From contig JAAZXB010000009.1 in the NCBI GenBank assembly GCA_014240375.1, positions 80,405 to 144,404 on the forward strand: DNA of 64,000 nt, in the 5' to 3' direction. Origin of the DNA: Planctomycetota bacterium. GTDB taxonomy: Bacteria > Planctomycetota > UBA8108 > UBA1146. Below the pieces are notes generated by a model. It was not told the origin of the DNA, made no database searches, and saw only the letters and a list, made by a program, of their open reading frames with translations. The stretch's first letter is position 1. Each line of letters opens with the position of its first letter. Positions 38,416 to 52,754 of this stretch are shown one piece after another. Made by a program: the position numbers and the translations under genes.

Positions 38416-39198
38416 CTAACTTCCCGGCAGCCGTGATGCTGCTGTTTCCAGTTGCTGGATTCCGAGCATCGAATCGGCATGGTCGTCATCGTTACGCTTG
38501 GCGATCTCAGAAAATGCGCTGATCACCTGCAAGAATCGATCATAGGAGCTCTTGTCGCCACCTCGCCACCGCGCAAACTCTAGCCAACCGGTCGCAATGT
38601 TGATGAGGAACGAGGCGTCCGGACCGACCTCGATCGGTGAAGCAGATTCTTTGGCATGGTCTCGAGCAGCTTCCAGGGAACTTTCGAATGCCGCGATCGC
38701 ACCGGACCAGTCTGCCAGTCCACAACGATGAGTTCCGAGAGCCCACCAGGCCATGTGGAACGGGACCGCTCCCTTGTTCAGTTCGGATCTCCAGCGAAGG
38801 CAATCCTCCGCACAACGAATCCCTGCCTTGAAGTGGTCATCCGTTCGAGGCTCGGGATCTTCAGGCCAGCAAGGAGCCAGGTCGGCAGCAAGGTTATAGG
38901 AGAGAATGTTGGCTCCGTCGAGGCGTCGGTCCCTTTCCTCGGCATCGGATTCAACTTCTGCCTGGGCAGCAAACTCATCGATGGCGGCGCGAGAGATTGC
39001 GATGAGATCAGCCAGGGTCCTCGGCAAGTCCTGGCCTGCAGAGATGCGCTGACTGGCCATCAAGAACAAGCCCCTCCGTTGCATGGGTTCACTCTTTGCG
39101 CCGATGTGATCGATCAGGGAGACGATCCCGGACTGGAGATAGATTTCACTCAATTCGGGCCACAGTTGTTCGAAAGGATTGGTGGTCTGGGTCATCAA
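38416..39198 (-). CDS. Hypothetical protein (helical/TPR-like)
   Basis: Coupled by overlap to the FHA-metzincin gene; no family recognised. Confidence 0.6.
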   Translation of the reverse strand: MMTQTTNPFEQLWPELSEIYLQSGIVSLIDHIGAKSEPMQRRGLFLMASQRISAGQDLPRTLADLIAISRAAIDEFAAQAEVESDAEERDRRLDGANILSYNLAADLAPCWPEDPEPRTDDHFKAGIRCAEDCLRWRSELNKGAVPFHMAWWALGTHRCGLADWSGAIAAFESSLEAARDHAKESASPIEVGPDASFLINIATGWLEFARWRGGDKSSYDRFLQVISAFSEIAKRNDDDHADSMLGIQQLETAASRLPGS

Positions 39199-42100
39199 AT
39201 TTCCTCCAGTGAGATATTATCGAACCAGACTGTACCGGATTGTCCCTTCACAAAACAGGCGATGTAGGTGGTCCGACTGGTCCCTGGCATCCAGTCAAAC
39301 TTGATCCTCGTCCATTCCGTATCTCGGCGAAGTGGTGCAGATCGAGAGGACCATGACCCGAGCCTGCCGGTGAAGAACCCGATCAGCGCTTCACCTTCGA
39401 ACTGGCTCGCCTTGACCAGTGCGGTCACTCGATATTTTTTTCCAGGGGTGACGACGATACGCTGGATGGTTCCACCGGCTCCGGGTTGGATGATTTTTGC
39501 CCGTAAGGCTCGGGTTCCATCGACCAGGCCTTCTGTATCCTCATCGAAGACCACCGAACCTCCAGGATCGACTTCCCCTGGGATCCAACCGTCGAGTAAT
39601 TTCTTGGCCTCGAAGTTTCCATTGATCAGCGGCTGGTGCACATCGTATCGAACGACCTCTTGTGTAAGATCCTCACCTTGTGGCCCTTCGTCGAGGATCC
39701 CCACCGGAACAGGGTCTCCCTCGGCGGTCATCAACTCCAGGCGTAAACCGCGAGTGCCGACCATCTGGGTCACTGCCACTTCGATGATGTTCTCACCTCG
39801 AAAGAGTTGGATGGGGAACGGCTTCTTCTGGTTCAGCATCAGTTCGTCGTGCATCGGTTGGCCCATCTGGGGACTGGCATCGATGAACCCGACGGGAGAA
39901 CCGTTGAGGCTGATTTGCATCTTCACATCCGTGGCCACGGTCAACCTCGCCTCGACATCATTGTTGACCACGATGCGGCGAAAGAGCAGCCACTGTCGAT
40001 TCCGAGTGACGGGGTCCTGTCCTGCAGTGAGATCGGTGAAGGGACTGGGCCAAACCAGAGGTCTCCATTGCGGGTTGGATTCTGCCGGACTCTTCCTCTG
40101 ATTTCTCCTGCGGGTAACGGATGATTCCACCGGTCCCAGCACCCACCACCCATTGATCACAGTTCCTTCGAGCCGATTGTAGTTCAATTGTATCGGGTGC
40201 TTTCGGGTGAACTGAACCGACGAACCGCCCAGATCGACGCGATCATCGAACACCGGCCATCCATTGGCGCGGAAGATCCAGGCGATATTTTCCCCCAGAG
40301 CGAGGGAGTAGAGTGCGGCGATTCGTTCGATACTGGAGAGCCCATGAAGGCGCAGTGTTTGCTCGGAAGCCTTGCGTTCGGTGAACATCTTGTGGTGAAC
40401 ACCAACTCCGTGGATGAATCTCAGGGCGGCAAATACGGAGGGGTTTGGTTGCCATATTGATCTCTCGTCACTATTTCTGTCGAGCAGCCAGCGAATGGTT
40501 TTCTGGAAAGCGTTGGCGTTGAGTAGCCGATATCCCAGTTCCCCGTAGATGCCCTCGTCGACACCACAATCGGCCAGCAACATGTAGGGGTCGTGGCCGA
40601 ATCCGATGTTATGACCCAACTCATGGGTGTAGGCGCCGGGCAAGCGATCTCCCTGACCGGTGTAGTCATGCAAGACTGCTGCATCGAGAACGATGACTCC
40701 GCCTCCTCCGAGACCGCCGACTCCCGGTGGTAGGAAGATATCGAAGTCCATCAGCAGTCTCAGGACTCCATCGGCGCACCCGAGGTGATCCTTGCAACCC
40801 CTCAGACTGCGGGCCACCTCCGGCATCATCGATTTCATCCTTGCACGAAAGATACTGGGCCCGGTGGCACTCGATCCGGCATCGTTGACGGTGATGGGAG
40901 TCTCGGCCTTGGCGATCCCACGAATCGCAGAATTCCCGAACGGCGCATCGATCTGGATGCTCAACTTGTCGAGGTCGACTCGCTGCAGTGTTTCAGGCTC
41001 TTGCCAGCGCATCGCTCCGAGGGTGCGGTGGATCAGCACCTTGCCCGATCGATCGACTGCAGCAAGGGAACCATCGTTGCCCGGGACCCGGTCGAGGACT
41101 CGCCCCCCTGCATCGGAGATGGAGAGACGCATCTGTATCGTCTTGTCCTTGCGTTCGTAATGGAGTCTCGGCGTCCAGGGTGATCGTGGTTCCAGGTCAA
41201 ATTTTTGTCCGGCAGATAATAGCGCTCGATAGGGCAAGAGGCGGGCGGTTTTCCCTCCGGGAAGGGTACTTCGAGTTTCCAGCCGATAGGTCCCTGGCAT
41301 CACCCAGGCTCGCCGAGCCTGCCGGGTCTCGAGGGTGAAGCGTTCTCGGAATCCGTCTACCGCCACCACCTCGATGGTGGCATCTGCAGCACCACCGAAC
41401 GCAGACTCGGCACTGTACTGGAGGCGACTCATACGGTTCTGGTCGATCAAGATCGGCACCACTTCACGGTCGCCACCGGTTTTGGCACGGGTGAGCACCG
41501 CTTCACCTTCAGTGGTGCGGCACAGCACGCAGATATCGACCGGAGGTCCCGACATCAACAGGCGAAACTGCCCGGTGGGGGCCGAGCGCGATGACTCCAA
41601 CCGTCCGCGGGCCCCCACCTCCATCGCCACTCTTTCGGTGGTGAAGGCTGCGGCGACCGGTTCAGGGGTGATCCATATCTTCTCGATGGACAGACCCTTT
41701 CCCTGGCGGTCTTCGACCGAGATCACTGTCTGCTTCCTCGGCTCCAGGAGGATGCTGGAACTCTCCCCTGATAGGGTTTGCTGTAGCAGCAATAATCTTG
41801 GCAGGGTCAGTACCAAAGTGTTGTCATCTGGATCGATATCATCGACCACTTCACCCTGGGCGATGACGGTCCAGGAACCGGGCACAACCACTGCGCTCCA
41901 GCGTCCATCGGTTCCCGTGGTTCCCTCGACGACCGCCAGACTCTCGTTGGAGAGGAGCAATAGTTTGGCCCCTGCGACCGGCTTTCCAACTTCGTCTCGC
42001 ACCTCGACCGAGATGGGTCGGAGCCTGAATTTCTCTCGAACCCACTCCTCACGCTCTCGTTCCCGTGCGATCGCTTTGGCCTCCTTGGCACTCTCGGAAG

Positions 42101-43325
42101 ATCGCCCCGGGAGTAGAACTCTCTCGACCGAATCGAGGAGCTCCCCGTCCTCATCGAGCATCTCGACCAGTACTGGTTGGTCGCCTGGATCCTCGATGGC
42201 GAGGTAACGACGCAAGCTCAGCCCCGGATCGACTCTGAATCGCATCTCCAGGTCGTTGCGTAGCGGAGTCTTCAACTGGACCAGTTGTCTCTCGGTGGTC
42301 GAGTTGTCGACCTCGAGGGCGATCACCCGGAATCCTTTTCTGCTGCCGGAGCCAAGTCGCTTCAGTTCTTTGCCTCTTCGATCGATGAAATCAGGTCCAC
42401 CATGATGATCCTTTTGATGGAACTGATAGGCGATGATTCGATCGGAAGGAGGCCATGCCTCGTCAAGGATCCTCAACTGCAGTTTTCCATCGTCAGGTGT
42501 GGGTACGGTCTGTACGTCGGACACCTGATCGTCGGTCACCCGGTCTTCGCCACCAGTGGGGGCGACATCATCGACCGCAGGCTCGAAGGAGACCTCGAAA
42601 TTAGCATCCGGAGTGAAGCCGCTGGTGACCGGCCGATTCGGTCGATCGATCGCGCTCGATACAGCATCAGAACCCTGCACCTTCGGGACATCTTTGGGTT
42701 CCGCTGAGGGGAGAGGGATCTGCAGATTCGTACCGGGCTGCCCGGTGGCGGGTTTGACCGCAGCGACCCCGATCTCTGGAGGAAGTTCCTGCGGCGTCGG
42801 CCCCAGTTGGCTGACGAAGTAGCCGATCGATCCGATGGTGAACAACAGCAGCAACAGGTTCCCCACTGGACTGGCTTCCTTTCGGGTGGTGCGAGTTGTT
42901 CGCGGGGTGGGGGCATGGTTGGAGGTATTTTGGCTCCTCTGATTTTTCGAGTTGCTGCTGGTCTTTGTAGTGGCTGAGCGACGGGACCGATCGCTGCCGG
43001 GCTTGCGGGTTGGATTGGCAGTGGGTTTCTTTGATCGGATCAAGACATCACCGATCTTCAGCGTCGAACTACCAGGGAATGGAGCACGCCCTTCGATGGA
43101 TCGGCCATCGAGAAGTGTCCCATTCGAACTGGCGAGATCTTCGATCACCAGGCCCTGGCTGGTAGAGATCAATCGGGCATGGCGACGGGAGGCTCGATGG
43201 TCAGCGATCTCCACCTCGCAGGTTGGATCTCGACCGATGATCCAGGGACCTTCACCGATCAGGGTGACGATCCTTTTGCCATTTGAATCCTCTACCTTCA
43301 ACAGAATGGGGTCAGTCGTACTCAT
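39195..43325 (-). CDS. Giant FHA-TM-extracellular protein with metzincin-type zinc-binding motif
   Basis: FHA: GPWIIGRDPTCEVEIADHRASRRHARLISTSQGLVIEDLASSNGTLLDG; TM GNLLLLLFTIGSIGYFVSQLG; YTHELGHNIGFGHDPY; C-terminal jelly-roll-like segment. Confidence 0.82.
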   Translation of the reverse strand: MSTTDPILLKVEDSNGKRIVTLIGEGPWIIGRDPTCEVEIADHRASRRHARLISTSQGLVIEDLASSNGTLLDGRSIEGRAPFPGSSTLKIGDVLIRSKKPTANPTRKPGSDRSRRSATTKTSSNSKNQRSQNTSNHAPTPRTTRTTRKEASPVGNLLLLLFTIGSIGYFVSQLGPTPQELPPEIGVAAVKPATGQPGTNLQIPLPSAEPKDVPKVQGSDAVSSAIDRPNRPVTSGFTPDANFEVSFEPAVDDVAPTGGEDRVTDDQVSDVQTVPTPDDGKLQLRILDEAWPPSDRIIAYQFHQKDHHGGPDFIDRRGKELKRLGSGSRKGFRVIALEVDNSTTERQLVQLKTPLRNDLEMRFRVDPGLSLRRYLAIEDPGDQPVLVEMLDEDGELLDSVERVLLPGRSSESAKEAKAIAREREREEWVREKFRLRPISVEVRDEVGKPVAGAKLLLLSNESLAVVEGTTGTDGRWSAVVVPGSWTVIAQGEVVDDIDPDDNTLVLTLPRLLLLQQTLSGESSSILLEPRKQTVISVEDRQGKGLSIEKIWITPEPVAAAFTTERVAMEVGARGRLESSRSAPTGQFRLLMSGPPVDICVLCRTTEGEAVLTRAKTGGDREVVPILIDQNRMSRLQYSAESAFGGAADATIEVVAVDGFRERFTLETRQARRAWVMPGTYRLETRSTLPGGKTARLLPYRALLSAGQKFDLEPRSPWTPRLHYERKDKTIQMRLSISDAGGRVLDRVPGNDGSLAAVDRSGKVLIHRTLGAMRWQEPETLQRVDLDKLSIQIDAPFGNSAIRGIAKAETPITVNDAGSSATGPSIFRARMKSMMPEVARSLRGCKDHLGCADGVLRLLMDFDIFLPPGVGGLGGGGVIVLDAAVLHDYTGQGDRLPGAYTHELGHNIGFGHDPYMLLADCGVDEGIYGELGYRLLNANAFQKTIRWLLDRNSDERSIWQPNPSVFAALRFIHGVGVHHKMFTERKASEQTLRLHGLSSIERIAALYSLALGENIAWIFRANGWPVFDDRVDLGGSSVQFTRKHPIQLNYNRLEGTVINGWWVLGPVESSVTRRRNQRKSPAESNPQWRPLVWPSPFTDLTAGQDPVTRNRQWLLFRRIVVNNDVEARLTVATDVKMQISLNGSPVGFIDASPQMGQPMHDELMLNQKKPFPIQLFRGENIIEVAVTQMVGTRGLRLELMTAEGDPVPVGILDEGPQGEDLTQEVVRYDVHQPLINGNFEAKKLLDGWIPGEVDPGGSVVFDEDTEGLVDGTRALRAKIIQPGAGGTIQRIVVTPGKKYRVTALVKASQFEGEALIGFFTGRLGSWSSRSAPLRRDTEWTRIKFDWMPGTSRTTYIACFVKGQSGTVWFDNISLEEI
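40590..40625 (-). other. Metzincin zinc-binding motif HELGHNIGFGHD
   Basis: HExxHxxGxxH consensus read directly on the minus strand. Confidence 0.85.
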
Positions 43326-43329
43326 CGAT

Positions 43330-44565
43330 TCATGCCTCTTCATCTGTCAGTGACCAGTAGTTCACCCGTTCTCCCGGGCGCAGCACGTCGGTGCTCGGGG
43401 GAGCAACGACCAGGCAGTTGGAGCCGGCAAAGCCACTCAGCAGGTGTGATCCTTGCCCCGACGGAATCTCGATCACATCGATCCCACCGTCAGGATCTGC
43501 AGTGGCCCTCCCGCGAAGTAATCGTAGCCGATCCGAGGCTGGAACTGATCTCTCTGACTTCAGAACCCCGCAACGCTGCGGCAGGATGCCGTCGGTTCTT
43601 CCTTCCATCCGCGCCAGAGCGGGTCGCACGAAAATTTCGAAGGAGACGAGGCAAGCGGCTGGATTGCCCGGCAATCCAAAAAATGGGACCCCTCCGATCA
43701 GGCCGTCCACCAGTGGCTTGCCAGGCTTCATCGCGACCTTACGAATCTGGACGTCGTCTCCCATCTCCCGAGCGACCTCGCGGATATGGTCGAGATCCCC
43801 GGCACTGATGCCACCTGTGGTGACGATGGCATCGGGCTTCAGTTCAAGAGTTTCTTGAAGTCCTGAACGGATCTCCGTCAGGTCATCGCGGAGGATCGGT
43901 CTGGGGATGGGAATCGCCCCCCAGCGTTTCACTCGAGCTTGAAGAGAATAGAGGTTCGAATTTCGGATCTGGCCAGGCTTCAACGCGCTGCCGATGGCGA
44001 CCAACTCATTGCCACTGGAATGGATGGCGACACGGGGTCTCCGGTTCACCGGAATCTGAACTGCGCCGACACTGGCGAGCAAGCCGATGGCACCAGGAGT
44101 GATCCGTGAGCCGGGGGCCATCACTGATCCATCCGCCTCGACATCTTCACCGAGTCTGCGAATGTGTGCTCCAGGGTGAATCGGCCGATCGATGGCGACC
44201 GATTGTTCATCGTGGTGAAGGCATCGTTCGAAAGGGATGACGGTATCCCCTCCTTGGGGAATGACTGCACCGGTGAATATCTTCATCGCACAGTGGTCTT
44301 TCAGGGGAGTGTCGGGTGCCATTCCTGCTTCGATGGTGGCGACCACTGGAAGCGTGATAGGCCGATCGGGAGTGGCTCCAGCGGTGTCGCCGGCCTTCAA
44401 CACGAATCCGTCCATGGCAGTGTTATCAAATGGAGGAATCGGATCCCGAGTGGCCACCGATTCAGCGATGATTCTTCCGACGGCATCTTCGAGTAGCACC
44501 ATCTCGGTGCCGATCGGTTTGATCCTGGCGAGGATCTGTTTGCGAGCATCTTCTAGATTGATCAA
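43330..44565 (-). CDS. moeA: Molybdopterin molybdenumtransferase
   Basis: DPIPPFDNTAMDGFVLKAGD, GDTVIPFE, IVTTGGISAGDLDHIREV, FFGLPGNPAACLVSFEIFV; TTG start overlaps cutA stop. Confidence 0.94.
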   Translation of the reverse strand: MINLEDARKQILARIKPIGTEMVLLEDAVGRIIAESVATRDPIPPFDNTAMDGFVLKAGDTAGATPDRPITLPVVATIEAGMAPDTPLKDHCAMKIFTGAVIPQGGDTVIPFERCLHHDEQSVAIDRPIHPGAHIRRLGEDVEADGSVMAPGSRITPGAIGLLASVGAVQIPVNRRPRVAIHSSGNELVAIGSALKPGQIRNSNLYSLQARVKRWGAIPIPRPILRDDLTEIRSGLQETLELKPDAIVTTGGISAGDLDHIREVAREMGDDVQIRKVAMKPGKPLVDGLIGGVPFFGLPGNPAACLVSFEIFVRPALARMEGRTDGILPQRCGVLKSERSVPASDRLRLLRGRATADPDGGIDVIEIPSGQGSHLLSGFAGSNCLVVAPPSTDVLRPGERVNYWSLTDEEA

Positions 44566-44882: not shown

Positions 44883-45108
44883 GGTTAAACTTTCCAGGTG
44901 GACCGCCTCGAGATTCACCCCTGAATGAGGTGAACTCAACGGCTCCTCGATCCAGCCAAATTCCATCGGGCGAAAGGGTAAAACGCACCGCCAGGATAAT
45001 ATCATGACTGGACAGGTGGTGGACAGATGGACCTCCATTCCAGCCCCTTCATTCGATGATCCTGGGGATAGGTTGCAGACCCCCATCGATCGGTGCAGCA
45101 TCCGTGCC

Positions 45109-47472
45109 ATGAACTGGTTAGAGATCGCACACGAGAACGAAAATCGCCATCCGCTCCCGGCAAGCGGGATCTTCATCATCGGCAGAGCTCCCGACTGTTC
45201 CCTGCGAATTCTGGAGCCAGGCGTTTCCAGGAATCATGCCTCCATCCAGCAGCGTGGCGGGGCTGACTGGATTCGCGATCTTTCTTCCAGCAATGGAACC
45301 TGGTTGATCGGCGAGGGGGTGCCGCCGCGGAAACTGACCGACGAGACATCCTTACGATCGGGTGATCGCATCCGCATCGGTTCGGTCGAGTTGGTCTACC
45401 ATCAGGCGTTGCCAGATACCCTTGCGGATGGGCGCTGGAGTGAAGTCTCCAAGATCGGGTCCGGTGGCATGGGTGAGGTATTTCGCGCCTGCGATCGGGA
45501 TCTCGGGTGCCTGGTTGCGGTGAAAAAGATCCGTTCTGAAGATGGGGATCCTTCGGGATTACTGCAGCGTCTCCATGCTCGCGAGGCGGCCATCGGGAGA
45601 GGGATTGATCATCCCAACGTGGTGCGAGTCCTCGATGATGGAATCGTCGATGGATCTTCGGTTCAGGTGATGGAATGGGTGGGGGGGGGAGACCTCTCCC
45701 GATCGATCCAGAAGGCCGCTCGAGATCCATCGGTAGGGCTCGAAATGATCCGCCAGATCGCACTGGGCCTGACAGCCGCACATGAAAGTGGCGTGGTCCA
45801 TGCGGATCTGAAACCGGGGAACATTTTGATCGTTGGCCAGCAAATAGAACTGGGCCTGGGCTCTGATATCTTCGAGGGGGAGCAGCACGAACCGGTCGAT
45901 CTCGAACGAGAATCAGCACGGATCGATGAGTATCTTCGGCAGGTTGAGGAGAAGCTGAATGCCCCCCCATTCGTCTCGAGGAGTGGCGAACTGGCGCTGA
46001 TCGAGGAGGCCCTGAAGTCGGGTGCGCGGTGCTGGATTCTCATCTTCGGCGAGCGTGGGGTCGGGCGTGGCCGCCTGGCCAGGGAAGTGGTGGACCGTTT
46101 CGGCGATTCGCAACTCGATCGGATTCACCAGGGACCTGAGTTCACACTTCCACCCGATGACTTCGATGGCGTCTGGATGACATCGATGCCTCGGGATTGG
46201 CCCGATGAGCCGACCTGGATCAAGACGTTGGAGCGGGCGAAACGGGAGGGGTGGTCACGAGAAATTCACCTCCAACCGTTGTTGCCTGGGCCTGCAGCCC
46301 GTTGGGTCGAAATGCTGGTCGATGCCCGTGGTGGGGAGGGTGCGCTGTTTCTGTCCCACCTCAACGGGGCTGAGGGTGCCGATGGCCATCCAGCACGATT
46401 ACTCGAGAGCATCGGCGAGAGCATCCAGCGGGGAGCCTGGACGCTGAACGATGATGGCGCCAAGTTGCACCCACTGAGGATGCGAGAGAGCGCACGAGAC
46501 GAGGCGAAGAGAATCGGATCGATCCTCGAAACGATCTCTCCCCTGTTGCGACAAGCTCTCGAGCGAATCGCTCTGTTTTCTGGAAACTTGACGGCAGTTC
46601 AGGTGGCTTCTTTGGTGCGTGGGGACGCAGCCATTTTCCACTCACTGGTGGCGGAAGCGATCGAACTGGGGCTGCTGGAGAAAGGAACCGATGGACGCCT
46701 CAACCTGGTCAGTGAAGGGCTTGGGAAAGCGCTCGCCGATCAGGTGGCGGAGCAGGAGAAGGAACAGTACATCTCTGCTGCGGCGGATCTGATCGTGGAA
46801 CTTCCCCCGCCTGCTGAAGAGCAGCCTCTGCAGTGGTTGAAGAGGGGCCGACTTCTGCGCATTGCAGGGCGGTTACAGGGCGCGATCGAGGCTCACCTGC
46901 AAGCGGCATTGATCGCCCGATCTCGTTACATGAGGCCCATCTTCATCGAGGCTCTGGACGAGGCTCGATCGGCGATTCGGGAAGCCGCGGCGTCGGGCGA
47001 TAGACGAGCCATCGATGCAGCAGAGAAAAAGATCCTGGGGGGAGAGCCTCGAGGCCTGGTGGCGATCGAGAGGCTCCGAAAATTGCCCATCGATGTGACC
47101 GTCAAGATTGCAGATTTCGGCATTGCGCGGATCTCCGGCGAAAGCACAGTCGGCGAGCCGCTGGCATGGGGAACACCGCGGTACATGTCTCCAGAACAGG
47201 CGAGGAAGGAGCCGTTGGCTCCTTCCAGCGATGTCTATTCTCTCGGGCTGTTGGCCAGGGAAGTGCTGGAAGGAAAGCATCCACTCGGCCCCTTGAGAGG
47301 TGCGGAGGCGATCCGGCGGCTGGCGCGGGGGGATCTGGACGAGATGTCCTCGACCCAGGAGAGAGCCCTCTGGGGCGATCTGATCGGGCGGATGCTATCG
47401 CTGTCGCCTCCCCAACGGCCATCGGCGCTGGAGGTGGCCGAGCAGATCGCCGAGATTCAGGCCCGCTATTAG
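45109..47472 (+). CDS. FHA-domain Ser/Thr protein kinase with STAND/AAA_16-like module inserted between catalytic loop and DFG
   Basis: FHA GIFIIGRAPDCSLRILEPGVSRNHASIQ...LSSSNGTWL; kinase IGSGGMGEVFRACDRDLGCLVAVKKI, HADLKPGNILI, insertion, KIADFGIARISG, WGTPRYMSPEQ, SSDVYSLGLLAREVLEGKHPL. Confidence 0.87.
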   Translation: MNWLEIAHENENRHPLPASGIFIIGRAPDCSLRILEPGVSRNHASIQQRGGADWIRDLSSSNGTWLIGEGVPPRKLTDETSLRSGDRIRIGSVELVYHQALPDTLADGRWSEVSKIGSGGMGEVFRACDRDLGCLVAVKKIRSEDGDPSGLLQRLHAREAAIGRGIDHPNVVRVLDDGIVDGSSVQVMEWVGGGDLSRSIQKAARDPSVGLEMIRQIALGLTAAHESGVVHADLKPGNILIVGQQIELGLGSDIFEGEQHEPVDLERESARIDEYLRQVEEKLNAPPFVSRSGELALIEEALKSGARCWILIFGERGVGRGRLAREVVDRFGDSQLDRIHQGPEFTLPPDDFDGVWMTSMPRDWPDEPTWIKTLERAKREGWSREIHLQPLLPGPAARWVEMLVDARGGEGALFLSHLNGAEGADGHPARLLESIGESIQRGAWTLNDDGAKLHPLRMRESARDEAKRIGSILETISPLLRQALERIALFSGNLTAVQVASLVRGDAAIFHSLVAEAIELGLLEKGTDGRLNLVSEGLGKALADQVAEQEKEQYISAAADLIVELPPPAEEQPLQWLKRGRLLRIAGRLQGAIEAHLQAALIARSRYMRPIFIEALDEARSAIREAAASGDRRAIDAAEKKILGGEPRGLVAIERLRKLPIDVTVKIADFGIARISGESTVGEPLAWGTPRYMSPEQARKEPLAPSSDVYSLGLLAREVLEGKHPLGPLRGAEAIRRLARGDLDEMSSTQERALWGDLIGRMLSLSPPQRPSALEVAEQIAEIQARY
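45835..47090 (+). other. Inserted STAND/AAA_16-like and helical region within the kinase domain
   Basis: PPFVSRSGELALIEEALKSGARCWILIFGERGVGRGRLAREVVDRF, then winged-helix/TPR-like helices; lies between NILI and VKIADFG. Confidence 0.7.
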
Positions 47473-47528
47473 GACGGGATTCGGCTCTCCTGATCCTGTA
47501 AACTGGATTCTCGGAAGGAATCGTCCCA

Positions 47529-49031
47529 TTGCCGTTTGATACATCATTGCGGGGCTGGACCCGGGCGAGGAAACCTTGTCCGGGCGGTCTACGCGTCACT
47601 TCACCCTGCTCCCTGGCCCACTCGTCGAGTGGGTCCAGATTTCTGCTACCACTCGGCTGGGTGATCTCTAGCCTGTTCCTCGCTTCTGCGCTGCAGGCCA
47701 GTCCTCCGGTCGCAATGGCTATTTCGACCGAGAGCAGTCCGCCAGAACTGATCGAGTCGGAAACGTCGTTGGCTGCAGACCGGGTGCTGGAGCAGGTCCG
47801 CTTCATCCTCTATGGAAACGAGCGCAATGAGGTGGCCGAGGTCCAACTGGACCAGGACCAGTATCTGTTGACCCTCTTCAACGAGACTCTTGCGAGTCAC
47901 TACTCGGTGCGAATCTCCCGCGAAGAGTTGATCTCGAGTGAGCCGATTCTGGCAGAGCGCGCCGAGCGGATCTTGAGCGAGCGAGCGGTGACCATCGCAG
48001 CACGTGAGCGGCTTCGAATCGAGCGCCGGGAGTTGATGCGCTCTCGCAGCCGTAAAGAACAGGGCCTCACCACTGGCCAGCGAGGCGGCAGCAGCAGTGG
48101 CAGCACGAGAGGCAGCACGAGAGGCAACACCAGTGGGTCCTCCTCCAGTAATGAGATCGAAGGGGGAACCAACTCATCGCTGGCGTCTCCCATCTCTCCC
48201 AAGGTCAGCGCATCGAAGTCGATCCAGATCTTGAAGAACTTCATGCTGGTCACGGAGGAACTGGAACATCGAGCGGATCAGATGAGAGTGACCAGTGCTG
48301 GCTGTGAAACCCAGTTGACCGAGTGGAATCGAGCGAGTGACAGAGGAACTGCGCTCTACTCCCGACTGAGGGAGGAAACCTATCACCTGATCGAACAGGA
48401 AGAAGTTCTGGCCAGGAAAATCCAGTCACGTAGCCAGGAAATCAATCGGTCGCTGGCCGATGTAGAGGCGGGCGAAATACGGTCTCGCGACCTTGCAGAG
48501 GTGATCGATCGCATCCGTCGAAGACTGCTGTCCATCGAGCAAAAGCTCGATTCTGTCGAGGCTCAATTGAGTGCTTGTTCCGATGGGATCCAGGCTCTGG
48601 GAGATCCGATCGTGTTGGCCTCGTCCCCTGCAGAGTCCTCTGACCGCACCGCAAGACCGGAACACGCCTCCGTCAGGCCCGAAGTTTCGATGACACGAAC
48701 CGCTACGGATACGAATCAGGAGTCCTCAGCGAAGGGTCGAGTAATTCCCGCAGTCAGCAGCGGGAGATCGGATCCTGAAGAGCCCCGCAATCCCCCTCGA
48801 CGGCAGGGGGGTGGTGGCGAGAAAGAAGCCGATGAGGCTCTGGTGAGTCCCAGCAGGGGAGATCCGCAGCAGGATCAGGTCCACGACGATCAGGATGAAT
48901 CCGATGAATCCAGTGAGTCCGGTTCTGCGGGGAAAGAGGAGATGACTCGCACCCTGCTGCTCGGTGGAATCCTCGGCGCACTCTTCGCACTGGTCCTGGC
49001 TCAACTGATCCGACGCCTCGGCCCGGTCTAG
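47529..49031 (+). CDS. Membrane-anchored coiled-coil protein with Ser/Gly-rich linker and C-terminal TM
   Basis: N-term hydrophobic LPLGWVISSLFLASALQA; GGSSSGSTRGSTRGNTSGSSSS; C-term LLLGGILGALFALVLAQLI. Confidence 0.55.
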   Translation: MPFDTSLRGWTRARKPCPGGLRVTSPCSLAHSSSGSRFLLPLGWVISSLFLASALQASPPVAMAISTESSPPELIESETSLAADRVLEQVRFILYGNERNEVAEVQLDQDQYLLTLFNETLASHYSVRISREELISSEPILAERAERILSERAVTIAARERLRIERRELMRSRSRKEQGLTTGQRGGSSSGSTRGSTRGNTSGSSSSNEIEGGTNSSLASPISPKVSASKSIQILKNFMLVTEELEHRADQMRVTSAGCETQLTEWNRASDRGTALYSRLREETYHLIEQEEVLARKIQSRSQEINRSLADVEAGEIRSRDLAEVIDRIRRRLLSIEQKLDSVEAQLSACSDGIQALGDPIVLASSPAESSDRTARPEHASVRPEVSMTRTATDTNQESSAKGRVIPAVSSGRSDPEEPRNPPRRQGGGGEKEADEALVSPSRGDPQQDQVHDDQDESDESSESGSAGKEEMTRTLLLGGILGALFALVLAQLIRRLGPV

Positions 49032-52000
49032 GGACAACTCCCCTGTACCAGGCAATCGAGCGAGTCTGAGGTCGGATCGACTCCACACCCCGGGCCGCTC
49101 GGTGGCGGTGGCGGTGGTGATCCGGGAATGAACAGGCTCGACAAGAGGAACACTGCATCCGCAACGTTCATTCCGCCATCGTCATTGCAATCTCCCGAAT
49201 CGAGGCATTGAACCGGAGAACTTCCCGGTACAAACAGGCTCGCCAGCAAGAATACGGCATCGGCAACATTGCGACCGCCATCCCCGTTGATATCACCCCG
49301 CACGAACTCGTCACCTGTGGGCGGTAATCCGCCCTCCATGGCAGCAAGGTACAGGGGAATCAGTAGCATCAGGTCAGAGCCGTAGCCGCCCAGTTCCCAG
49401 GACTGGCTGATCACCGGTGCGATGGTGCTGTCGTAGAAGACACCCACGCCGTAGTCGACGAAGGGGTCCGATCCAAGCCAGATCAATCCAGCCTGATTTC
49501 CGCCAAGGTCAGGGTTCTGATCACACGGGATCAGTCGGTCGGTGTAGTCATTACCCGGGGAGTCCTGAGAATACGGTGCATCGAGAGCTGTGAGATCGAG
49601 GCCGTGAGTGGAATCGACTCCGACCAGCTGGAGCAACGAATCGTCGCCATTCTCGACATTGCCAAAGTTCTGATCCTCGACACCATCGAACTGGGCAAAC
49701 ACGGTTGGGTCGTCGTAGGCCCAGGCATCATTGCTTTCGATGTAGATCGCCACAGCGGGACGCTCCTGGCTTCCGTTGAGTCCATCATCTCCGGTGTGAA
49801 TCTCGGAGAGCAGGATTCCATCGGCAGCGGTCAATTCATACCGCTCGGGGTAGGTGCCAAGGCAGCACCAGAGCACCTCTGGAATTCCGGTACTGGCGAT
49901 GGTGTTGGAATCGATGGAATCGATGGTCATCACGGAACGGCCCAGTTGAACCAGGTTGTCGGCAATGGTCAGTCCACTCAGGATGTCTCCTCCCGTCTCG
50001 CCGATCCAGATCACATCGGTGATCTGGACCCCGCCTCGGACGGGCAGGCTGGTGTTACTACATCCGAGAGCGAAATCGAAACCGACCAGCTGGTATTCGT
50101 GGGCACCTGCGGGAGGTGTATCGATGAAGGATGTGTTGGTGCCCGGCAGTCCGGTGGCGAGCAAGAGTCCATCTCGGATCACCTGGATCTCGTCGTAGTC
50201 CGCAGGGTTGGTCCAGTTCAGGGTGATGTTGGTACCATCACTGGAGGCGCTGATATCTTGCGGCGGAAGAGTCTGGCAACCCCCGTCGATGAGCAGGCAC
50301 CAGCGATCGAAGGTGGCAACGGCGCCGGGGTAAATGTCTTCGACAGTCATCACCCAGGGACCCTGAGTCGAGGTGTTGATGAAATCAGCCATCGTTCCGG
50401 GCCCACTTGCGTCCATCGCGCAGCCGCAATCGTAGGGAGCTGCATTGGCCGGGGCACCGTTGCTGTAGAGCACGCTGATATCGGAGTCCGCACCACCGAG
50501 CAGATCATGAAGTGTAACTGAAGTGCCGGAGGGGGAAGAGAGGTCGACGATGAGGTCTCCGACGAATGGGTGTCGAATATCCACCAGCACATCGATGTCA
50601 CCGATGAGCATGTTATTGGTCATCAGGATGAAATCTGAAACCGGACTGACAGCCTGATTGATGGGGCTGCCAGGCTCCCGGCAGACCATCACATCTCTGG
50701 AGACCATCAGTGGAGTATTCTTGCAGATCAAGTCAGAGACATTCCCGTTCTGGAACGCCTCGACGCACACCACTGCGGTACCGGGAACCGGGCGAGGCCC
50801 GCTGACCCAGCTACTTGCCGTACCACTGACGGCACCCTCCAGGCCTCCATCGACATAGATCCTGACCTCGTCATAGACGGAAGCATTGGTCCAACTCACT
50901 TCCAGTTCTCCGGTTCCTGGAGCCGAACTGGCGAGCAGATCCGAGATCGGCTGGACCAGGAAGTCGATGGTGCAGCAATTGGGTGGAATTACCTCGCCGA
51001 CCAACTGCGGAAAGATGCAGTACAGGACCGTCGATGGAATCGTCTGAGGGGCCGTGGTGTAACTGGTCACTGTTCCGTCTGCGATGATCGCTTCCAGATT
51101 TCCATCGGCATAGATCTCGAAGGAGTCATAACCCTGAGGATTGGTCCATGTCATCTCTGCGGTGAGCGAGCCAGAACTGGCGGAACAATTCAACTGCGTC
51201 ACGCTACCTTGCTCGAAGGCGCGGATGCACCAGGAGTCGAGAGATCCGATGCGGGGGCCACCTCCGGTGAAGACATCATCGATGACGATGCTCCAGTCTC
51301 CGAGCGACGAAGTGCCGAGGTAATCGGAGAGAGTACCTGGTCCTGTCGGTTGAATCGGACAACCGCAGTTGATGGGAATGGTTCCTGGCGCAGCACCTAG
51401 ATCCCAGAAGGTCGCTTCGATGGTTGTGGCTGCACCACCATTTTCATTGTGCAACCGTACAGTGGTTCCGCTGTGGATCACATCCACCGTCAGATCACCG
51501 ACAAACGGATGATTCAGATCGACCTGTACCTGCAGATCACCGATGGAGATGTCATCTACGATGGTGATCACATCGACGGTTTGAGGAACCGTGTTTCCCA
51601 CCACTGAACCCGGGGTCCGACAGATCTCGATCGAGGGAGCCATCGGCTGGGAGGTGATGGAGCAGCATTCAGGAGCACAGGGTACTGCGGCTCCGATGGT
51701 GGGGAGCAGGCAGATCTCGAGTGTGGTGCCTATGCCCCCTCCGATGGCAGTGTAGGAGGTTGCGTCTCCTGCGAGGGTGTCGATCAGAACACCACCGATG
51801 GAGACCTGGATCTCGTCATAGATCATCGGGTTGGTCCAACTGAGGCTAGTGTTGCCGGTACCTCCGATATCCAGGCACAGCAGGTTTTCCACTCCCAGTA
51901 CGGCAGAGGAAACACCACTGTCAAAGGTGCTGAGGCACCAGTCGTTGAGTCCTCCCGTGGCTCCGCCGCTGTAACTGTCGAGGCAGCGAATCGTCCAGGC

Positions 52001-52432
52001 CCCGGCGGATCCGTTGCCGGCCAGATCCGAGAGAGCTCCTGGACCTGAAGGCTGCATGCGGCAGCCAGAATCCCACAGGAGGGAACCGTTGGGCGGGCCT
52101 TGATCGTCGAAGATGATGTTGATGAAGTCGTTGGAGCCGCCACCTTGGTCATGAACTCGTACCGTGGTGCCATTGGGAGAGATGATGTCCACAGAGACAT
52201 CATCGATGTAATCGTGAGTGATATCGACGAAGACATCGACATCGACCACCGTTTCATCGGTGGTAATCGTCACCGTCGATTCGGTGGGATTGGCAGGATC
52301 CTCGGAGATGGGGAGAGCTGCTGGCAACCCGGCACAGACGGTGATATCCGCCAGTGTCACAGAGTTCGCAGCGATCACCCAGCATAGGGTCAGTAACCCT
52401 GGCAATATTCGGTATCGGTTCAGATTCAACAT
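49028..52432 (-). CDS. Large secreted protein with three proprotein-convertase P-domain-like units and dockerin-like C-terminus
   Basis: Signal peptide MLNLNRYRILPGLLTLCWVIAANSVTLA; three HxF/YxxDxxVDxxxxxGTxVxLHDxxGG...SGPGxxxDxxxxxxxGxWxxxxxDxxxGxxxxxxxWC units; C-term RGDINGDGGRNVADAVFLLASLF...GDCNDDGGMNVADAVFLLSSLF. Confidence 0.82.
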   Translation of the reverse strand: MLNLNRYRILPGLLTLCWVIAANSVTLADITVCAGLPAALPISEDPANPTESTVTITTDETVVDVDVFVDITHDYIDDVSVDIISPNGTTVRVHDQGGGSNDFINIIFDDQGPPNGSLLWDSGCRMQPSGPGALSDLAGNGSAGAWTIRCLDSYSGGATGGLNDWCLSTFDSGVSSAVLGVENLLCLDIGGTGNTSLSWTNPMIYDEIQVSIGGVLIDTLAGDATSYTAIGGGIGTTLEICLLPTIGAAVPCAPECCSITSQPMAPSIEICRTPGSVVGNTVPQTVDVITIVDDISIGDLQVQVDLNHPFVGDLTVDVIHSGTTVRLHNENGGAATTIEATFWDLGAAPGTIPINCGCPIQPTGPGTLSDYLGTSSLGDWSIVIDDVFTGGGPRIGSLDSWCIRAFEQGSVTQLNCSASSGSLTAEMTWTNPQGYDSFEIYADGNLEAIIADGTVTSYTTAPQTIPSTVLYCIFPQLVGEVIPPNCCTIDFLVQPISDLLASSAPGTGELEVSWTNASVYDEVRIYVDGGLEGAVSGTASSWVSGPRPVPGTAVVCVEAFQNGNVSDLICKNTPLMVSRDVMVCREPGSPINQAVSPVSDFILMTNNMLIGDIDVLVDIRHPFVGDLIVDLSSPSGTSVTLHDLLGGADSDISVLYSNGAPANAAPYDCGCAMDASGPGTMADFINTSTQGPWVMTVEDIYPGAVATFDRWCLLIDGGCQTLPPQDISASSDGTNITLNWTNPADYDEIQVIRDGLLLATGLPGTNTSFIDTPPAGAHEYQLVGFDFALGCSNTSLPVRGGVQITDVIWIGETGGDILSGLTIADNLVQLGRSVMTIDSIDSNTIASTGIPEVLWCCLGTYPERYELTAADGILLSEIHTGDDGLNGSQERPAVAIYIESNDAWAYDDPTVFAQFDGVEDQNFGNVENGDDSLLQLVGVDSTHGLDLTALDAPYSQDSPGNDYTDRLIPCDQNPDLGGNQAGLIWLGSDPFVDYGVGVFYDSTIAPVISQSWELGGYGSDLMLLIPLYLAAMEGGLPPTGDEFVRGDINGDGGRNVADAVFLLASLFVPGSSPVQCLDSGDCNDDGGMNVADAVFLLSSLFIPGSPPPPPPSGPGCGVDPTSDSLDCLVQGSCP

Positions 52433-52754
52433 GGTCTGTTTTGGATCCTCAGTTGGGGTCACTTGATGCCTTCCTGGGAAGGGGCCAGCCGTTTCGAAGA
52501 CCGATATTGTATCCGGCACTGGCACCATGGGTCAGCGGAATCGACCGGAGCTTTTGAAGGTGTGGATCCCGTCAGCTGGGAGCACTTCTTCACTATCTTC
52601 CATGATACCGTGGAGGATCGTTCGGTGGGAAGCGATCAGCGAGGAATCTGGGCATTGTAGATACTGATCTCGGTGGCCTCGCAGTCGCCTCGAGATTGGC
52701 TAGAATGCCCCATTGCTGCCGAGTCGGCCAGATCGTGGGAAAGGGTGTATTGCA

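Follow-up and report, generated by a model that had tools for sequence, protein, structure and literature searches.

Regulation of bacterial protein kinases is mostly thought of as the work of domains attached before or after the kinase domain. Within that domain, the Asn of the HxDLKPxN catalytic loop and the Asp of DFG usually lie about 13 residues apart. In PknK-like fusions, a Hanks-type kinase and a STAND module (NTPase, winged helix, TPR) share one chain. The kinase is contiguous (Asn to DFG 13–32 residues), and the STAND module follows it and has intact Walker motifs. This order was established on homologues from the same genomes as the kinase described here (L006, L050, and L057). In these three proteins the distance from catalytic loop to DFG is 28–32 residues instead of 13, an insertion at the β7–β8 turn that is smaller than the one reported below.

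Insertions inside the kinase fold are described for eukaryotic enzymes. CLK has a hairpin between β7 and β8, SRPK1 has a much larger insertion there, and both have HTD in place of HRD; the SRPK1 insertion was reported to be dispensable for substrate interaction and catalysis (PMC2667211). The SRPK spacer, whose sequence is not conserved, holds the kinase in the cytoplasm via chaperones (PMC9202992), and a simulation of SRPK1 points to the remaining spacer helices as a source of allosteric coupling (PMC11809128). A STAND that is catalytically inactive and yet kept in a signalling system is the iSTAND, the third component of the vWA-MoxR ternary conflict systems (PMC7159879).

The kinase analysed here is encoded in the window, a 64,000-nucleotide stretch of a contig from a Planctomycetota bacterium. 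Like the PknK-like fusions, it combines a Hanks-type kinase with a homologous STAND module in one chain. However, the module is located inside the kinase and appears to be dead, the TPR array is almost gone, and the kinase domains of the two types do not group together. The original prediction of an order unlike that of PknK therefore stands, as the module lies between HADLKPGN and DFG and not at the C-terminus. The insertion site is that of SRPK1, SRPK2, and Sky1, as judged by motif position and model strands, and so has precedent among kinases in the eukaryotic SRPK and CLK insertions (PMC2667211). The SRPK spacer is probably no STAND module, whereas the kinase of the window is closest to bacterial StkP, PknA, and PknB and carries an FHA domain; the likeness to SRPK would be convergent rather than homologous. 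The likeness to the iSTAND lies in the retention of an apparently inactive STAND in a signalling protein, but here the module is nested in the kinase and has no vWA-MoxR neighbours (PMC7159879). An FHA-kinase paralogue in the same genomes (L002, L173–L182) also has FHA followed by a Hanks-type kinase, but is contiguous, with HRD and a spacing of 13. The insertion site, kinase–STAND fusions, and inactive STANDs are known already; what appears to be new is a STAND nested in a bacterial kinase, for which no description was found in the open-access literature.

Gene architecture and the kinase fold

The gene (Table 1) encodes 787 residues with no stops. ATG at 45109 is favoured as the start because the opening residues, MNW or MGW, are conserved among orthologues. 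An FHA domain followed by a kinase split by about 418 extra residues had been proposed from the DNA letters; the open frame, the Pfam FHA match, and a Pkinase match in two stretches confirm this, with an insert of about 420 residues. The distance between Asn238 of HADLKPGN and Asp669 of DFG, given as about 431 residues, measures 431; in the further kinases identified in this genome, HxDxKPxN and DFG are 13–28 residues apart. In the FHA domain, R26, S40, H43, and N62 are invariant in 17 orthologues.

Table 1. Features of the kinase gene and its downstream neighbour, in positions of the window
Feature	Residues	Positions	Strand	Basis
Complete gene: FHA, N-terminal kinase part, pseudo-STAND insert, C-terminal kinase part		45109–47472	+	Open frame; orthologues
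FHA domain	22–92	45172–45384	+	Pfam PF00498, E = 1.1e-15
Kinase N lobe through catalytic loop and β7 (K139, E159, HADLKPGN 231–238)	105–243	45421–45837	+	Pfam PF00069, profile 4–132; invariant residues
Insert entry linker, fast-evolving, probably disordered	244–284	45838–45960	+	pLDDT mostly 30–55; lowest identity of all segments
Degenerate STAND NTPase core	285–450	45961–46458	+	hhalign against PknK-like STANDs; AAA_16 in relatives
Winged-helix-like part of insert	451–560	46459–46788	+	hhalign; IclR-family regulator profile match, E = 0.0036; pLDDT mostly 85–93
Helical part (first TPR-like repeats) and conserved exit tether ERLRKLPIDV	561–663	46789–47097	+	Helices in model; conservation
Kinase β8, DFG (669–671), activation segment GTPRYMSPEQ, C lobe		47098–47469	+	Pfam PF00069, profile 137–259; VIA-align to PknB, Z = 31.8 over 103–785
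Downstream gene, candidate partner or substrate: 500 aa, apparent signal peptide, charged middle, C-terminal TM		47529–49031	+	Same kind beside the kinase in L063, L097, L099

Scanned separately, the N and C halves of the kinase match complementary parts of the 263-position Pkinase profile (Table 1), so no portion of the kinase is absent or doubled. The insert site coincides with the gap of four positions between them. All the Hanks-type catalytic motifs are present: the G-loop, the VAVK Lys, the αC Glu, HxDxKPxN, DFG, and the APE-like Glu. Across 17 full-length orthologues there is no variation in the G-loop glycines, Lys139, Glu159, His231, Asp233, Lys235, Asn238, DFG, Glu696, Asp708, or Arg770. 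The HRD arginine is never retained in these proteins (Ala in 8, Ser in 9), making them non-RD kinases, and with HAD or HSD at this position the kinase probably needs no usual activation-loop phosphate switch. Among the sequence matches listed for the kinase, the best are bacterial StkP, PknA, and PknB; SRPK is not in that list, which does not exclude it. The protein is predicted to be a cytoplasmic-looking Ser/Thr kinase of Hanks type that is catalytically competent.

The halves of MAD6 are far apart in NCBIfam, but the PADLOC mad6 profile matches contiguously (57–186 and 191–314), so it is not taken as a precedent for a split kinase. The PADLOC matches are confined to the kinase domain and give no ground for calling this a defence gene.

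AlphaFold2 with an alignment of the six true relatives only gave a poor model (pLDDT 54.9). With the alignment deepened by 39 contiguous kinases from viral contigs, the mean pLDDT was 77.2. In this model β7 (239–241) and β8 (665–667) flank the insert, in agreement with the β7–β8 turn named by the original prediction. VIA-align superposes residues 103–785 on Mycobacterium tuberculosis PknB with an rmsd of 1.9 Å over 253 of 263 residues. The aligned residues are drawn from both sides of the insert and would build one PknB-like kinase. The two halves thus pair around the insert in the prediction, the check that had been suggested, although the contiguous kinases added to the alignment inform the pairing, which is therefore not independent of it. 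Residues 385–459 of the insert have low confidence, so the model does not fix the orientation of the insert relative to the kinase. With Foldseek by itself, each match covered about one of the two kinase halves. No SRPK was among the structure matches listed, which carries no weight.

Distribution, origin, and decay of the nested module

The phylum sample contained 392 genomes, 29 of the class and 363 from elsewhere. Searching with the insert located it at the same site in 19 of the 29 class genomes, in five families; no match of comparable strength was found in the 363 sampled genomes of the phylum outside the class, and the restriction to the class holds for this sample. The weaker phylum matches (E above 1e-30) belong to other proteins; where the stretch examined contains kinase motifs, their spacing is normal. 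Within the genus, each of the four relatives sampled has the architecture, and so do further genera of the window's family (f1), another family of the same order, and less closely related families of the class. The Asn-to-DFG spacing is 427–456 in f1 and 520–539 in families f4–f6, the f1 module being about 90 residues shorter. The insert-bearing kinase is missing from one genus of f1 (g5), from f3, and from one f4 genome, where the best FHA-kinase is a different paralogue with a spacing of 13. Matching public records are titled mostly as Planctomycetota MAGs. One record titled ‘Bacillota bacterium’ (QNYK01000069.1, L062) holds an orthologue of 67% identity; the title is probably wrong. Scanning contigs with the close-family alignment yielded close relatives only and a weak P-loop match in a Myxococcales kinase. 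No relatives of the insert were found in plasmids or in viral contigs.

The uninterrupted gene recurs in 19 genomes that were assembled independently; in two of these a contig end truncates it. An assembly chimera around 45835–47090, the event that the original prediction said would refute it, is excluded by this recurrence. Compared pairwise with two congeners (L018 and L020), dN/dS is 0.15–0.21 for the insert and 0.07–0.22 for the FHA and kinase parts. Purifying selection acts on the FHA domain, on both kinase parts, and on the insert as a whole. In a tree of the kinase parts only, all 14 insert kinases form one clade (support 0.95), and the PknK-like kinases encoded in these genomes fall outside it. 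This single clade makes one insertion event the simplest reading.

Pfam gave weak AAA_16 and ATPase_2 matches for the insert alone; of the 13 insert-family members, 11 match AAA_16, the best one above the curated cut-off. Using hhalign, we compared the insert with STAND modules taken from PknK-like kinases and from one cyclase. The whole insert family aligned with 99.9% probability (E 1.2e-32, 373 columns) and the window's own branch with 98.8% (E 4.7e-17, 318 columns). The aligned region runs from the NTPase core across the winged helix into the first helical repeats; the insert does not have the long TPR array found in PknK-like proteins. On this profile similarity, the insert is a STAND module homologous to the C-terminal ones in PknK-like kinases of the same genomes, and the proposed AAA_16/STAND module with winged-helix and TPR-like helices holds up. 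In the window protein the NTPase core comprises the PPFVSRSGE box, a dead P-loop GERGVGR (314–320), no Walker B region, and then the sensor-side part. The helical part with the exit tether is the best-conserved stretch of the insert.

Neither nucleotide motif is intact. In place of Walker A, GxxxxGK[ST], the window protein has GERGVGRG. The loss of the P-loop Lys noted in the original prediction extends to the branch, with Arg in all eight full-length f1 members. Walker B, hhhhD[DE], is likewise not found, as the region is absent in f1 and the acids are not conserved in f4–f6. The suggestion that the insert may bind nucleotide without hydrolysing it is too generous for the f1 branch, since the Walker B region is gone besides the Walker A Lys. 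The P-loop Lys is retained in all nine f4–f6 members and in the f2 member. The residue after it in the nine is N, N, G, G, S, K, G, G, and D. ILEDID, with the Walker B acids of the C-terminal STANDs, aligns in f4–f6 to residues of the type RLLSLG or RVLELG, which places the acidic pair opposite Leu and a variable residue. By these alignments the motifs are eroded in both branches, and further in that of the window. Most probably the module serves as a folded platform for interactions rather than as a nucleotide-driven switch.

Possible roles of the module and its gene context

On balance we favour, by a little more than even chances, a competent FHA-kinase into whose β7–β8 turn a STAND module was inserted once, lost nucleotide use, and was kept as a protein-interaction platform. 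The module (NTPase core, winged helix, and first helical repeats) would have entered in an ancestor within this Planctomycetota class, lost the residues for nucleotide use, and been retained in folded form. The kinase would fold around it. The nested module would sit behind the kinase, close to its hinge and the αD–αE groove, with a direct tether to β8 and DFG. By recruiting a partner or substrate it would determine the location, and perhaps the strength, of the kinase's action; the FHA domain would read phospho-Thr on partners. The conserved exit tether, ERLRKLPIDV, may also couple the module to DFG.

Such coupling is the core of a rival reading, that of the original prediction, in which the module exerts allosteric control over the activation segment. 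Binding of a ligand or protein by the pseudo-STAND would move the tether, which leads straight into β8 and DFG, and thereby switch the kinase on or off. This exit part is the best conserved of the insert and is covalently continuous with β8–DFG, the non-RD catalytic loop makes some other control likely, and the SRPK1 simulation points to coupling from spacer helices (PMC11809128). However, the β7–β8 turn is not adjacent to the active site in established kinase anatomy. The large SRPK1 insertion at this very site is, moreover, reported as not required for catalysis (PMC2667211). We regard the switch as possible but doubtful, and are equally tentative about the related proposal that the dead STAND is an internal domain gating the kinase via covalent tethers at β7 and β8–DFG, convergent with SRPKs in site and in loss of the HRD Arg. 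A scaffold or docking role would be at least as plausible as allosteric control, and by analogy the SRPK precedent may be counted for it.

Nucleotide could still matter elsewhere in the class, with the long forms of f4–f6 binding it as sensors and only the window's family having lost this ability. Retention of the P-loop Lys, in the f2 member too, speaks for such a division, but the Ser/Thr after it is replaced in eight of the nine and the Walker B acidic pair is aligned to Leu and a variable residue; we consider it unlikely. It is more improbable still that the insert is a functionless relic tolerated in a permissive surface loop. The insert is degenerating: in f1 it has neither the P-loop Lys nor the Walker B region and is some 90 residues shorter than in f4–f6. 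Against this, its dN/dS is near that of the kinase, and fold and site are kept in five families. An assembly chimera or a frameshifted gene pair deserves almost no credence, given the same uninterrupted frame in many assemblies and purifying selection.

The gene context of the kinase bears in part against the platform that we favour, for f1 and f5/f6 do not share it. In several f1 genera the gene that immediately follows the kinase encodes a membrane-anchored-looking protein of 418–529 residues; the window's copy (Table 1) has no Pfam match. In f1 the surroundings are moeA and cutA, whereas the f5/f6 kinase (L092, L094, and L095) adjoins mutS and a thioredoxin-domain (YyaL-like) gene, the gene names being read from sequence. 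The minus strand at 39195–43343 encodes a 1382-residue protein in which an FHA domain occupies the N-terminus; it also has a TM-like segment and the metallopeptidase-like motif HELGHNIGFGHDP. In L097, a protein resembling it in size and C-terminus is next to moeA, so the pair seems to be kept. At 49028–52528, also on the minus strand, is a gene for a 1166-residue protein that looks exported; it combines three proprotein-convertase P-domains with a dockerin-like C-terminus (NGDGGRNVADAVFLL-type repeats). Positions 44900–49200 gave no match to a sigma-70-like promoter, which says little.

The kinase of the window carries a large module inside its catalytic core, retained across the class although its nucleotide switch appears to be lost. 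A bacterial kinase would thus be wired via an internal rather than an attached domain. The parallel with SRPK suggests that regulatory or scaffold domains can enter kinases repeatedly at the β7–β8 turn, and that insertion there may be accompanied by loss of the HRD arginine. The protein would provide a domain-insertion design from nature that can be tested, and an example of a STAND module that became a pseudo-NTPase within its effector.
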